Positions 3,581 to 36,139 of a stretch of DNA of 64,000 nt are shown here, piece by piece. The notes under the pieces were generated by a model. That model searched no databases, was not told the origin of the DNA, and saw nothing but the letters and a program-made list of their open reading frames with translations. The translations under genes and the position numbers were made by a program. Within the stretch, counting starts at the first letter, position 1. Each line of letters starts with the position of its first letter. The stretch is from Quadrisphaera sp. RL12-1S (GTDB taxonomy: Bacteria > Actinomycetota > Actinomycetes > Actinomycetales > Quadrisphaeraceae). Where the stretch lies: the NCBI RefSeq assembly GCF_014270065.1, contig NZ_JACNME010000003.1, positions 1 through 64,000 on the forward strand, in the 5' to 3' direction.

Positions 3581-4366
3581 TCAGGCGCCCTGCGGGAGCG
3601 GCTGGACCGCGGGGGTGGCTCCCCGCTCGGCGTGCAGGGCGCGCCACGCGGACGCGGCGGCCTCCTGCTCGGCCTCCTTCTTGCTGCGCCCCGCACCCCG
3701 GCCGCGCGGCGCCGGCCCGGCGCCGTCAGCGGGCGCCTCGGGGAACGTGGCCTCGGCGGCGAAGGTCTTGGCGTGGTCGGGGCCCTCCTCGGTGACGAGG
3801 TACTCCACCGGCCCCAGACCGTGGGCAGCGCCCAGCTCCTGCAGCGAGGTCTTCCAGTCCAGGCCCGCGCCGAGCTCCGCGGACACCTCGAGCAGCGGGC
3901 CGACGAGGCGCAGCACGAGCTCCCGGGCGGCGTCGGGGCCGCAGGAGAGGTAGGCGGCGCCGATCACGGCCTCGGTGGTGTCCGCGAGGATCGAGTCCTT
4001 GTCGCGACCGCCCGTGGTCTCCTCGCCGCGGCCGAGGCGCACGGCGGCGCCCAGGTCGAGCCTGCGCGCCACGCTGGCGAGGGCGCGCATATTGACCACC
4101 GCCGATCGCAGCTTGGCCAGACGGCCCTCGGGCAGGTCGGGGTGGCGGTGGAACAGCTCGTCGGTGACGACGAGACCCAGGACGGCGTCGCCGAGGAACT
4201 CCAGGCGCTCGTTGGTCGGCACACCGCCGTTCTCGTACGACCACGACCGGTGGACGAGGGCGCGCTCGAGCAGCTCGACCTCGACCTCGAGGCCGAGCTG
4301 CTCCAGCAGGCGCGCGTGGACCTGGTCGCGCGGCGGCTCGACGGGCCGACGGCGACGGGCCGTCAG
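3581..4366 (-). CDS. rnc: Ribonuclease III, apparent CTG start
   Basis: 261-residue double-strand-specific RNase that processes rRNA precursors. The signature [13 protein letters not shown], a second acidic cluster ([11 protein letters not shown]) and a C-terminal dsRNA-binding domain (KTSLQELG ... [10 protein letters not shown]) are all present. No ATG, GTG or TTG exists between the rpmF stop and the conserved catalytic domain. The only well-placed initiator is CTG at 4366-4364, which overlaps the rpmF stop as CTGA, the same geometry as the ATGA/GTGA couplings elsewhere in the window. Alternatives are GTG 4510, deep inside rpmF, or the internal GTG of GGVPTNERL, which would remove the first helices. 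Confidence 0.93.
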
Positions 4367-31803: not shown

Positions 31804-32585
31804 CGCCGCACCACCGGGTTGCTGAGGGTGCCGATGCCCTCGACCTCGACCTCGACCCGCTGGCCCTCGCGCAGCTGCCCGACGCCGGCGGGGGTGCCGG
31901 TGAGGATGACGTCGCCGGGCAGCAGCGTGAAGGCGCGGCTGGCGGTGGCGACGAGCTCGGCGACGCCGAAGACCATGTCCCCGGTGGTGCCGTCCTGCAC
32001 GGTCCTCCCGTCGAGGCGGGTGGTCAGGCGCAGGTCCTCGACGTCCTCGAGGGTGAGGTCCGGGACGATGTACGGGCCGAGCGGCTTGGAGGAGTCGAAG
32101 CCCTTGGCGCGTGCCCACTGCCCGTCGCCCTTCTGCCAGTCGCGCGCGGTGACGTCGTTGGCGACGGTGTAGCCGAAGACCACCTCGGCCACCCGGTCCT
32201 CGGGGACGTCCTTGCAGACGCGCCCGATGACGACGGCGAGCTCGCCCTCGTAGTCCACGCGCTCCGAGCCCTCCGGCATGACGATCGGGTCTCCGGGGCC
32301 GATGACGGCGGTGTTGGGCACGAGGAACATCAGGGGCTTCTCGGGCAGCTCGTTGCCCATCTCGCGGGCGTGGTCGGCGTAGTTGCGGCCGATGCCCACG
32401 ACCTTGCTGCGCGGGATGACCGGCGCGAGCAGGCGGGCGTCGGCCAGCGGCACGCGCTCGCCGGTCGGCTGCAGCGGGGCGTAGAGCGGGTCGCCGACGA
32501 CGACGTGGATCACCTCCTCACCGGCCTCCCCCTCGACGAGGCCGAACCTCGGGTCGTCTCCGGTGGTGAACCTGGTGATGCGCAC
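31800..32585 (-). CDS. Fumarylacetoacetate hydrolase-family protein
   Basis: 261-residue FAH-fold enzyme. Metal-binding residues are in [12 protein letters not shown], with [28 protein letters not shown] and [11 protein letters not shown]. Such proteins act on 2-keto acids (decarboxylases, hydratases or acylpyruvases) and are conserved upstream of gltX in Actinobacteria; the substrate is unknown. GTG 32585 has TAGGCT (32592-32597) 6 bases upstream, the promoter for FAH-gltX-CPBP-tRNA-Gln-tRNA-Glu. Confidence 0.93.
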
Positions 32586-32669
32586 CCGTCAAGCCTAGAT
32601 CGGACGCGAGTCCGCGCTCCCTCCCCCCGGGCGTGATCACAGGCGTTGGGCATCCGTCGCTCCCTCGGC

Positions 32670-32779
32670 GGGCTCCGGGCTGGGCAGGCTGAGTTCCGGT
32701 GGGCAGGTTGAGTTCCGCTTCCGGGCCTGGAAGCGGAACTCAGCCTGCCCACCGGACGTGAACCTGCCCGGCTCAGCGC
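32670..32779. repeat. Two-unit hairpin element, left copy (flanks DUF559 gene)
   Basis: About 110 bases built as unit, unit', short loop, reverse unit', reverse unit. GGGCAGGCTGAGTTCCG and GGGCAGGTTGAGTTCCG run forward; GGAACTCAGCCTGCCC and GTGAACCTGCCC run back. The inner stem is centred on GGGCCT near 32723-32728. A second copy at 33897-34005 is about 95% identical and in the same orientation. The stop codon of the DUF559 gene lies in the element's edge. The rest of the 32586-32772 gap holds the FAH promoter. Confidence 0.9.
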
Positions 32780-33876
32780 GGCGAACGGGCTGGGGCCCGC
32801 AGCCACAGCCTGGGGGCGCCCCCGCGCCGACCCGGCACGTCGACGACGACCGGCAGCTCCGCGCCCGCCAGCTGCGCCCTCCGGACCGCGGCCACCTCGA
32901 GCACCTCGCGCCGGCACGCCTCCGGCTCACTGGTCAGGCGCCGGTGGGAGAAGCGGACGGTCTGGATGCCGACGCCGGCCACGCGCGCGTCGCGGGTGAT
33001 GTCCCGCTCCCGCTGCCACGGCGAGTCGTGGTAGGCGCGGCCGTCGAGCTCGATGGCGAGCGCTGCTGTCTCGTCGTAGCAGTCGAGGACGGACAGCTGG
33101 CCAGCAGCGAGCACCTCCACCTGGCGGTGCAGGTGCTCGAAGGCGGGTCCGGTGAAGACGTGGTCGTAGCCCCACAGCTCCAGCTCGCTGCGGCAGCCGG
33201 CCACGATCTTCCCCACGAGCTGGCGCAGCTCGCCGGCCCCCGCCACCTGCCGGCGCGCGGTGAGCTCGTCCTCCAGGTCAGCGGCCGTCAGCAGCTGCTT
33301 CCTCACGCCGACCAGCGCCGGTGCCCGCTGGTCGCTGCCGCTCAGCAGCGGCCAGCTCTCCACGACCGCGCGCTGGGCGGAGACCACCTCGAGACCCTCG
33401 CGCACCACGCGGCCGGGCTCGGCCCGGCTGCGGTGGAGCTCCAGCCGCCAGGCGCCTGTTGCGGGGACCGTGCGGCGTCGCGGGTGCGGGACGGTGACGT
33501 GGACCGCAGCCGATGCCACGTCCTCGGGCACGGGCAGCCCGTGCAGCTCGAGCGCGCTGGTGTGGGACAGGGCGCTCGGCGCCCCGGCGAAGATCAGCGC
33601 CGACCGGGCACGGTCTCGTGGCGCGTCCACCCGCTCTGGGAGGGCGAGGACGCCCGGCAGGACCCTGACCACAGCTCCGGACGCCACCGCTCGAGCGACG
33701 GCGCCGGTGCTGCACGCCGCCGCCAGCTGCGCCCACGGTGCTGTGCCGCCGAGGCGCTCGAGCACAGCGGGGACGCGAGATGCGGGCGGCACCGCGCCAG
33801 CGTCTCCGCTGACGTGCTGACCCGGTGATGTCGGCGGGCCACCTGTGGACGACGACGCCACCCGAAGGCGCCACAC
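32773..33876 (-). CDS. DUF559-domain (Vsr-like endonuclease fold) protein with winged-helix N-terminus
   Basis: 367 codons from GTG 33876; GTG 33792 (VPPASRVPAVLERLGG) is an equally likely start, because homologues begin at that helix. The N-terminal third (VLERLGGTAPWAQLAAACSTGAV, VVRVLPGVLALP) resembles the winged helix of AbiEi-type regulators. The C-terminal part (ALAIELDGRAYHDSPWQRERDITRDARVAGVG, IQTVRFSHRRLTSEP) is the DUF559 fold, related to very-short-patch endonucleases, with the acidic E-L-D-G motif. Whether it cuts DNA is unknown. It stands alone between two near-identical repeat elements. Confidence 0.82.
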   Translation of the reverse strand: MWRLRVASSSTGGPPTSPGQHVSGDAGAVPPASRVPAVLERLGGTAPWAQLAAACSTGAVARAVASGAVVRVLPGVLALPERVDAPRDRARSALIFAGAPSALSHTSALELHGLPVPEDVASAAVHVTVPHPRRRTVPATGAWRLELHRSRAEPGRVVREGLEVVSAQRAVVESWPLLSGSDQRAPALVGVRKQLLTAADLEDELTARRQVAGAGELRQLVGKIVAGCRSELELWGYDHVFTGPAFEHLHRQVEVLAAGQLSVLDCYDETAALAIELDGRAYHDSPWQRERDITRDARVAGVGIQTVRFSHRRLTSEPEACRREVLEVAAVRRAQLAGAELPVVVDVPGRRGGAPRLWLRAPARSPR

Positions 33877-33896
33877 CGGAGCTGTGGGCGGCTGAC

Positions 33897-34005
33897 GGGC
33901 TCCGGGCTGGGCAGGCTGAGTTCCGGTGGGCAGGCTGAGTACCGGTTCCGGGCCTGGAAGCGGAACTCAGCCTGCCCACCGGACGTGAGCCTGCCCAGTC
34001 AGCGC
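33897..34005. repeat. Two-unit hairpin element, right copy (flanks DUF559 gene)
   Basis: Second copy of the 32670-32779 element, same orientation. It differs at about five positions and one single-base indel. It begins 20 bases upstream of the DUF559 GTG and ends about 30 bases after the rnhA stop. Copy spacing is 1,227 bases. Confidence 0.9.
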
Positions 34006-34034
34006 CGGCTCGAGGTCCGGGGTCAGCAACCGGG

Positions 34035-34493
34035 TCAGCGGGCGGTGGCGCGGACCTGGTCGACGCCCTTGTTGGCCAGCGCGTCGGCGGCCTCGTTGCC
34101 GGGGTCGCCGGCGTGGCCCTTGACCCAGCGCCACTGCACGTCGTGGCGGGCGACGGCGTCGTCGAGGGCCCGCCACAGCTCGGCGTTCTTCACCGGCTGC
34201 TTGGACGCGGTGCGCCACCCGTTGCGCTTCCACCCGGCGATCCAGCTCTGGATGCCCTGCATGACGTAGGTCGAGTCGACGTGCAGCAGCACCGTCGAGC
34301 GCCGCTTCAGCGCGCCGAGCCCCTCGATGACCGCCGTGAGCTCCATGCGGTTGTTCGTCGTGGCCGCCTCGCCGCCGAAGAGCTCCTTGGTGTGCTCCCC
34401 GGAGCGCATGAGCACGCCCCAGCCGCCCACGCCCGGGTTGCCCTTGCAGGCGCCGTCGGTCCACATCTCGACGACGGGCTGCTCCTCGCTCAC
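34035..34493 (-). CDS. rnhA: Ribonuclease HI
   Basis: 152-residue RNase that degrades RNA in RNA-DNA hybrids. The four acidic residues are in [33 protein letters not shown] and [10 protein letters not shown], and the basic protrusion ([16 protein letters not shown]) is present. GTG 34493 overlaps the cimA stop (GTGA), an unusual pairing of a nuclease with an amino-acid gene. Confidence 0.95.
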
Positions 34494-36139
34494 GCCGGTG
34501 ACGCGGTGGACGTCGCCGGGGAGGCGCCGGGCACCGGGGCGCCGGACTTGAGGAGCCCGTACGTGATGCCGTCCACCAGGGCCTGCCAGGAGGCCTCGAC
34601 GAGGTTGGGCGCCACGCCCACCGTCGTCCAGGTGGCCCGCCCGTCGGTGGTGTCGATGAGCACGCGCGTGGTGGCGTCGGTGCCCGCGTCGGCGTCGAGG
34701 ATGCGCACCCGGAAGTCGGTCAGGTCGAGCCCGGCGATCTGCGGGTAGACGGGGATGAGCGCCTGCCGCAGCGCGGCGTCGAGGGCGTTGACGGGGCCGT
34801 TGCCCTCGCCGGTGGCGACGAGCCGCCGCCCGCCGGCGTGCAGCTTCACGGTGGCCTCCGACGTGGGGCCGGTGCCCTTGCCGTGCTCGATGAACGCGCG
34901 CCAGCTCTCCACCTCGAAGTAGCTGGGGCGGGCACCGTCGCGGACCTCGCGCAGCAGCAGGTCGAAGCTGGCGTCGGCGGCCTCGAAGGTCCACCCGGCC
35001 AGCTCGAGCTCCTTGACCCGGGCGACGGCGCGGGAGAGCACGTCCTGGTCACCGGCGAGGTCGTGGCCGAGCTCGCGGCCCTTCAGCTCGATGGAGGCGC
35101 GCCCGGCCATGTCGGAGACGAGCATCCGCATGTCGTTGCCGACGGCGGTCGGGTCGGTGTGCTGGTAGAGGTCGGGGTCCACGCGGATGGCGCTGGCGTG
35201 CAGGCCCGCCTTGTGCGCGAACGCCGAGGCGCCCACGTACGGCGAGCGCGCGTACATCGCCACGTTGGTGATCTCCGCGACCGCGTGGGCGATCCGGGTC
35301 GCCTCGCGCAGGCACTCCGCGGGCACCACCGGCAGGCCGAGCTTCAGCACCAGGTCGGCCGCGACGACGACGAGGTCGGCGTTGCCCGTCCGCTCGCCGT
35401 ACCCGTTCACGCAGCCCTGGACGTGAGTGGCACCCGCGCGCACGGCGGCCACGGAGTTGGCGACGGCGCAGCCGGAGTCGTTGTGGGCGTGCATCCCGAC
35501 CCGGGTCCCGGCGGGCGAGGCGGCGAGGGTGGCGGCGACGACCTCCTCGACCTCGTGCGGCAGCCGGCCCCCGTTGGTGTCGCAGAGGACGACGGCCTCG
35601 GCGCCCGCCTCCACGGCGGCGCGGACGACGGCGAGGGCGTGGTCGCGGTCGAGCTCGTACCCGTCGAAGTAGTGCTCGGCGTCGAGGAAGACGCGCCGGC
35701 CGTTCGCCACGAGGTGCTCGACGGTGTCGCGCACCATGGCGAGGTTCTCCTCCTCGGTGGTGCGCAGCGCCAGCTTCACGTGCCCGACGTGGCTCTTGGC
35801 GACGACCGTCACCACCGGCGTCTGCGCGTCGAGCAGCGCCTGGACCTGCGGGTCGGTGGCCGCCGACCCGCCGGCGCGGCGGGTGGCCCCGAACGCCGCG
35901 AGCACGGCGTGGCGCAGCTGCAGCTCGGTGCGGGCGCGGGCGAAGAACTCGGTGTCGCGGGGGTTGGCCCCGGGCCAGCCGCCCTCGATGAAGCCGACGC
36001 CCAGCTCGTCGAGGTGCGCGGCGATGGCCAGCTTGTCGGCCACGGAGAGGTTGAGCCCCTCCTGCTGCGCGCCGTCACGCAGGGTCGTGTCGTAGACCTG
36101 GACGGGGTTCGCCGTCGGGCTGGTCGTCGTCGAGCTCAT
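34490..36139 (-). CDS. cimA: Citramalate synthase
   Basis: 549-residue member of the isopropylmalate/homocitrate synthase family: acetyl-CoA + pyruvate to citramalate, an isoleucine route that bypasses threonine deaminase. The N-terminus has [13 protein letters not shown], the metal site [14 protein letters not shown], and GERTGNADL. The C-terminal regulatory domain (about residues 400-520) is typical of LeuA-type enzymes. Reading the call as CimA rather than LeuA rests on the length and the [12 protein letters not shown] region. 11 bases downstream of ilvE. Confidence 0.9.

Follow-up and report, generated by a model that had tools for sequence, protein, structure and literature searches.

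The described system closest to the one reported here is that of repetitive extragenic palindromes (REPs) and RAYT genes, which encode IS200/IS605-type tyrosine transposases. A RAYT gene has a REP on either side, coevolves with its REPs and evolves rapidly, and the REPs themselves usually number more than 100 (PMC2817692, sections available). A survey of GTAG- and CGTC-tagged palindromes reported CGTC repeats without an associated transposase gene, and the term "actino" is absent from its main text (PMC3733652). Three further groups of proteins bear on the comparison: the Vsr-like homing endonucleases, such as I-Bth0305I; the antitoxins of AbiE type IV toxin-antitoxin systems, of which AbiEi and Rv2827c bind inverted repeats within their own promoters (PMC7319586, sections available); and the Vsr-REase domain named after MTES_1575, which is set within a large fused protein, flanking palindromes going unmentioned in the available sections of that source (PMC3710099). 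By titles and abstract openings, we found no description of a palindrome-bracketed DUF559/AbiEi-Vsr system in the open-licence literature.

At the locus described here, which lies in a 64,000-nt stretch of the genome of the soil bacterium Quadrisphaera sp. RL12-1S (the window), a gene for a predicted DNA-cutting enzyme stands between two palindromes, as do about half of the related genes surveyed in actinobacteria. The cassette shares with the REP/RAYT system the two palindromes around the gene. It may also share a coevolution of gene and palindrome, the palindromes being specific to gene and genome, the dispersal of cognate palindromes between genes, and a gene that changes faster than its neighbours (in one species pair, the second gene of which is split between frames). 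It differs in its enzyme, an AbiEi-like/Vsr-like nuclease instead of a tyrosine transposase, and is therefore not a RAYT; in the low copy number of its palindromes, at most 16 with exact arms; and in its flanking copies, which may be direct because each copy is itself a palindrome. For the window element moreover no dispersed copy was found at up to 1 mismatch per unit, whereas the palindrome of a sibling gene has four copies beyond the flanking ones. The Vsr-like homing endonucleases resemble the cassette in their catalytic domain and in its use of conserved slots, occupied repeatedly, but the cassette gene lies between two palindromes, its putative target, where a homing endonuclease gene would interrupt its target site, and an AbiEi-like part is added. 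The AbiE antitoxins share the predicted N-terminal fold, but here a nuclease part is attached, a matching repeat is also present downstream and no partner toxin was recognised. Overall, the system looks like selfish repeats built on an enzyme not known for this role.

A sequence-only reading of the window had described two direct copies of a palindromic, multi-unit element, about 95% identical and 1,227 bases apart, around a single gene whose stop codon falls in the edge of the left copy, and each of these features was confirmed (Table 1). The copies are 96% identical over 101 nt (32669-32769 versus 33896-33996, direct, 1227 nt from start to start) and 94.6% identical when aligned over 111 nt, with arms at 32672-32725/32726-32779 in the left palindrome and 33907-33952/33953-33998 in the right one, and it is the inner edge of the left palindrome that contains the stop codon. 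Each combines four GGGCAGGCTGAGTTCCG-like units, two in forward and two in reverse orientation. With up to 3 mismatches allowed, this unit matches the window eight times, every time inside the palindromes, against 3.6 matches expected; 2 of 100 shuffles attained eight. Folded as single-stranded DNA, the palindromes gave z-scores of -10.6 and -11.0, and none of 200 shuffles was as good in either case. Neither a T-tailed terminator nor a sigma-70-like promoter was found when positions 32500-34200 were scanned.

Table 1. Positions of the cassette features in the window.
Feature	Position	Strand	Basis or remark
Left palindrome	32669..32779	.	Four units, two in each orientation; downstream of the gene
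Right palindrome	33896..34006	.	Repeats the left palindrome in direct orientation; upstream of the nuclease gene
Predicted DUF559/Vsr-like nuclease gene with AbiEi-like N-terminal part, 367 aa	32773..33876	-	Pfam, predicted structure, PADLOC
AbiEi-like part, residues 53-212	33241..33720	-	PADLOC AbiEi model, E 1.2e-15; best Foldseek match 6y8q
Pfam DUF559 stretch, residues 263-328	32893..33090	-	Includes D265, E276, D278 and D292; E233 is N-terminal of the stretch

The window protein is predicted to consist of an AbiEi-like DNA-binding part and a nuclease resembling Vsr and homing endonucleases. Pfam DUF559 scored 24.5 bits over approximately residues 263-328 (cut-off 20.6), and Pfam MTES_1575 matched the same stretch below its cut-off (32 against 38.2); no transposase domain was found in the Pfam search and nothing at all in the NCBIfam search. 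The predicted structure (pLDDT 87, pTM 0.83) had the AbiEi antitoxin 6y8q as its top Foldseek match (E 1.3e-5) and only match below 0.001. Weaker matches included Rv2827c, NGO0050, AbaSI, PvuRts1I, I-Bth0305I (PDB 3r3p; E 0.04, to the catalytic domain) and Vsr (E 2.1), in agreement with the earlier suggestion of a Vsr-like nuclease fold. Five acidic residues (E233, D265, E276, D278 and D292) were unchanged in an alignment of 24 divergent proteins. Given that AbiEi and Rv2827c bind inverted repeats, these fold and residue data make a predicted palindrome-binding part joined to a nuclease a fair reading of the window protein. One neighbour of the gene encodes an FAA hydrolase (Pfam); the other we take to be RNase HI-like, the stretch submitted having no Pfam match, and no AbiEii-type toxin gene was recognised in either. 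A tblastn search for relatives in phages, plasmids and viral contigs found none.

The window genome (4.62 Mb in 27 contigs, estimated 100% complete) was then searched for the 16-nt unit. Numerous elements lying apart from DUF559 genes, which the sequence-only reading had named as evidence against a link between element and gene, were not found for the window palindrome: at up to 1 mismatch per unit, six matches lay in the two palindromes and one elsewhere, the reversed control pattern also matched once, and no further copy of the palindrome was found in the genome. This count ruled out the window palindrome as a dispersed repeat of its genome. Across the order, the same search matched at least 96 of 198 genomes, and this count is uninformative because most matches were scattered and single and the reversed control matched many genomes too. 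An insertion sequence was likewise rejected, since near-identical copies are absent (the nearest relative of the gene in its genome is 57% identical) and no target-site duplication was noticed by eye.

Bracketing by matching repeats proved to be a widespread pattern in which the palindrome differs from gene to gene, and is not peculiar to the window locus. A profile search of the window genome gave eight MTES_1575 matches, and seven of these eight DUF559-type genes have matching repeats both upstream and downstream. The repeat sequence is different for each of the seven, with GACGATCA shared between the repeats of L040 and L045, a pair of genes that are 65% identical. The eighth gene, L042, scored 16.0 and has a hairpin upstream only. 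In a first survey of 36 loci (seven from the window genome and 29 from other genomes), 23 had a bracketing score of at least 20, the 99% point among 1260 mismatched flank pairs being 19.1. In a later set none of 72 exceeded the 99% point of the mismatched-flank null, because related loci had entered that null, and dinucleotide shuffles and control ORFs took its place. For this cleaner test 107 loci were entered, of which 99 had flanks of sufficient length; L042 (scored apart), L039 (the window gene itself), L065 and L079 were left out, together with L061-L064 and L066-L068, which we took to be the same records as named loci. A score of at least 20 was reached by 49 of 99 DUF559 genes versus one of 226 other ORFs at the same loci (Fisher p 5e-29, ignoring kinship among loci) and by none of 1980 shuffles, and the single scoring control ORF directly adjoins a cassette. 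This bears out the idea that the palindromes belong with the gene. About half of the surveyed DUF559 genes are without a bracket, including 15 of 16 Micromonospora loci in one set. The upstream repeat frequently abuts the start codon.

The form of the repeats also varies. The bracket of L045 consists of 32-nt tandem repeats without hairpins (1287-1414 and 2411-2530), in opposite orientation on the two sides. Near the start codons of L072, L074, L075, L078 and L089 we saw by eye repeats with small hairpins, with loops such as GATAGA/CTAGA and with stems that vary between the genes of this subgroup.

Comparison within the genus gave a view of how the cassette changes. In Quadrisphaera granulorum (L111) the block with the nuclease gene is collinear with the window, and in this one species pair the gene has 79% nucleotide identity versus 91.5-92.5% for three neighbours. 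The Q. granulorum gene (approximately 4001-5007 of L111) aligns with the window protein in two separate frames, one covering residues 29-153 and the other residues 154-365, and may be broken or misread, so the fast divergence may partly be decay. The palindromes are 94.6% alike within the window as against 73-79% between species, so that the two appear to change together, and this agrees with the earlier view of their near-identity as a sign of recent duplication or gene conversion. The pair in Q. granulorum is just 77.5% alike, and such concerted change is thus not constant. No clean empty site for the window locus was found among five same-genus genomes, and the fetched stretches of these five have no DUF559 gene beside the FAA gene, the neighbourhood being rearranged; in Q. 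granulorum, itself among the five, it is located some 4 kb further along.

Several side observations were made in these comparisons. In a comparison of window 32598-32682 with L111 5109-8840, other genes spanning about 3.7 kb separate the palindrome from the FAA gene in Q. granulorum, and the similarity between the two sequences breaks off at the outer boundary of the left palindrome. The putative RNase HI-like gene beside the cassette, at approximately 34035-34494, is inverted relative to L050 and L051, which lack a DUF559 gene there, and Q. granulorum shares the orientation of the window. Two records are probably mislabelled, judging by their sequences: L113 (G577), titled Streptomyces sp. 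NP160, agrees with the window genome at 100% identity in ClpX and at 97% in the FAA hydrolase, and L127, titled Bacillus sp. AZ43, was placed among Geodermatophilaceae on the protein tree.

Many DUF559 genes occupy a few conserved places beside core genes, which we take from their sequences to be yebC, ruvC, clpX, cimA and a threonine aldolase gene. The window slot, from the FAA hydrolase gene to cimA, is common to L084, L131 and L138, with genes just 31-42% identical to the window gene. In family f32, yebC was found in 11 of 12 genomes, one region ending early; in the remaining 10, a DUF559 gene follows yebC in seven and none does in three. At every filled yebC site but L108 the gene is flanked on either side by a repeat of its own; in one of these sites (G355) the contig stretch stops before ruvC, and in another (G337) the gene is reversed while both flanks are collinear with the others. 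The place after clpX links 24 of 108 compared loci, with the gene in either orientation, and on a tree of 109 proteins the clpX-slot label required nine changes, eight of them forced by well-supported branches, indicating that this slot was re-occupied by different lineages.

A set of 21 genomes compared at the place after clpX had a DUF559 gene there in 19, in the direction of clpX in seven and reversed in 12, and flanks were inspected for 11 of these 19 filled sites. Six same-direction genes have a palindrome that we call type A (GTGTGCGC..GCGCACAC or close) on both sides, and four of five reversed genes have another, type B (GCGTTGTCC..GGACAACGC or close), on both sides; the type-B copies are degenerate in L203, and L201 has one on one side only. 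The two sites without a gene were read by eye. L199 carries a single type-A palindrome, after which the sequence continues as in the filled sites L194 and L209; in L200 a whole palindrome, a short inner remnant and a half-palindrome are present, an arrangement that reads as a deletion remnant. One and the same slot in Geodermatophilaceae is thus found as palindrome-gene-palindrome in most genomes and as a single palindrome without the gene in another. For the loss of the cassette by recombination between copies, which had been proposed for strain comparison, the expected product was therefore present in a relative, namely a single palindrome without the gene; the direction of the change is our reading of these states.

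The threonine-aldolase slot, compared in 19 genomes, holds a type-A gene in three (one of them without the left palindrome), a different DUF559 gene between two copies of another palindrome in one, a solo type-A palindrome in one and a solo type-B palindrome in two; in the other 12 none of these genes or palindromes was seen. The right-hand neighbour differs in several of the genomes. Neither a clean insertion into a palindrome-free site nor a target-site duplication was seen among the slots compared. A GTGTGCGC..GCGCACAC palindrome was also observed beside a DUF559 gene that resembles L041 and belongs to a different subfamily (L250, 1501-1551). An extra stretch in Geodermatophilus (L147) was set aside, as it proved to be a different repeat, AAGGACC..CCTGCAGGG..GGCC; this intergenic repeat lies behind one gene in L147 (approximately 1473-1537), and L164 lacks it in the same gap and carries a copy elsewhere (approximately 3838-3898).

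Some gene-specific palindromes are dispersed in the manner of REPs. Type A, with exact 8-nt arms, gave 57 matches in 13 of 23 genomes, with a maximum of 16 (G573) and one match for the reversed control; one match of 52 nt within a called ORF (G101) is probably due to chance, and 49 distinct matches measure 51 nt. For 15 of the 17 type-A loci retrieved, the 3 kb covered (about 1.5 kb either way) gave no DUF559 match, and one genome with type-A palindromes (G578) has only a B-type gene identified. The inner arms are more alike within genomes (22.0 of 35 positions) than between them (17.8 of 35; permutation p <=0.0002, ignoring kinship), and only 14 of 29 solo copies from five genomes are most similar to the copy that flanks the gene in the same genome. 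Pairing at inner pairs 12 and 14-17 (five of 14), maintained through C-G/G-C swaps, exceeded that of all 500 shuffles; at the other nine tested it did not. Type B, with exact arms, gave five matches in three of 23 genomes and none for the control. Three of the five adjoin the gene after clpX and the other two are both in G579, which is thus the only genome with exact-arm type-B copies elsewhere; the B-type gene follows clpX in 11 genomes, eight of which lack an exact-arm match. The case for a cassette is carried by the type-A and Quadrisphaera lines, and the type-B facts weaken one line of it.

In Quadrisphaera itself, the arm of the palindrome of sibling gene L043 (TGATCATGCAGAAGACCCGCAC, up to 3 mismatches) occurs 5-24 times per genome in six same-genus genomes, with no match for the reversed control. 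Twelve of the 14 arms in the window genome form six palindromes of 57 nt, two beside L043 and four elsewhere; in the copies inspected the arms are conserved and the inner stems variable, mostly still pairing. Identical palindromes in tandem, as in clustered REPs, were seen in G572 (C5:86340 and 86484, 144 nt apart) and in G573 (C12:439086 and 439147, 61 nt apart). Dispersed solo copies often lie directly after stop codons in some lineages. By rough gene calls, six of 29 solo palindromes of three kinds lie inside a called ORF, and 11 are flanked on either side by a called gene no more than 200 nt away; these neighbours are convergent in eight cases (two in one gap), tandem in three and divergent in none.

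The orientation of these neighbours bears on autoregulation and termination, the alternative that survives best, although we regard it as unlikely. The upstream palindrome would then serve the AbiEi-like part as its operator, the downstream one would act either as a terminator or as another operator, and the dispersed copies would be ordinary terminators or a small regulon. The frequent position of the upstream repeat against the start codon fits an operator, as does the binding of AbiEi and Rv2827c to their own promoters, but the absence of divergent neighbours among the 11 solo palindromes does not fit operators (on rough gene calls), a downstream copy of the same gene-specific sequence would be superfluous, and invariant nuclease residues are not accounted for. 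Less likely still is a passenger role for the DUF559 genes: host terminators, or repeats that owe their spread to a different agent, would have come to enclose these genes in pairs, and the genes would move by homologous recombination alone. Recombination and gene conversion would indeed suffice for the loss of a gene that leaves a solo palindrome and for the concerted change of the copies, but seven DUF559 genes of one genome have seven different repeats (apart from the sequence shared by L040 and L045), and the near-absence of bracketing among other ORFs, with the one exception directly adjoining a cassette, argues against such passengers. A fused AbiEi and nuclease serving anti-phage defence or as a toxin-antitoxin system, with the palindromes as regulatory hairpins, is very improbable: the PADLOC AbiEi match and the Foldseek matches to AbaSI and PvuRts1I, 5-hydroxymethylcytosine-specific restriction enzymes, are in its favour, but no partner toxin was recognised among the neighbours, and the lack of tblastn matches in phages, plasmids and viral contigs says little either way.

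We therefore favour, as the probable though far from certain explanation, a palindrome-nuclease cassette that works like the REP/RAYT system with an unrelated enzyme, one that recognises and spreads its palindrome and re-enters solo copies by recombination. The AbiEi-like part would bind the gene's own palindrome and the Vsr-like part would nick or cut it, whereupon repair from another copy would spread or homogenise the palindrome. A solo palindrome, once cut, could be repaired from a palindrome-gene-palindrome copy, with the palindromes as homology arms, and the gene would thereby home in; recombination between direct copies would remove the gene and leave a solo palindrome. Palindromes after stop codons may persist because they are harmless there or are used as terminators.

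More tentatively, at somewhat less than even confidence, a second kind of REP system may have arisen independently in actinobacteria. It would consist of families of selfish palindromes, each maintained and propagated by an AbiEi-Vsr (DUF559) nuclease of its own that homes into solo copies; the palindromes would be tolerated or used as terminators between convergent genes, and one genome would house several such systems with different palindromes. As many genes carry their apparent target alongside, pairs of enzyme and target could be read directly from genomes and tested singly. If this is true, DUF559, a domain of unknown function, would gain a function and a target, palindromic repeats of actinobacteria would be assigned an enzyme, and nuclease-maintained palindromes would have arisen more than once, with different chemistry.
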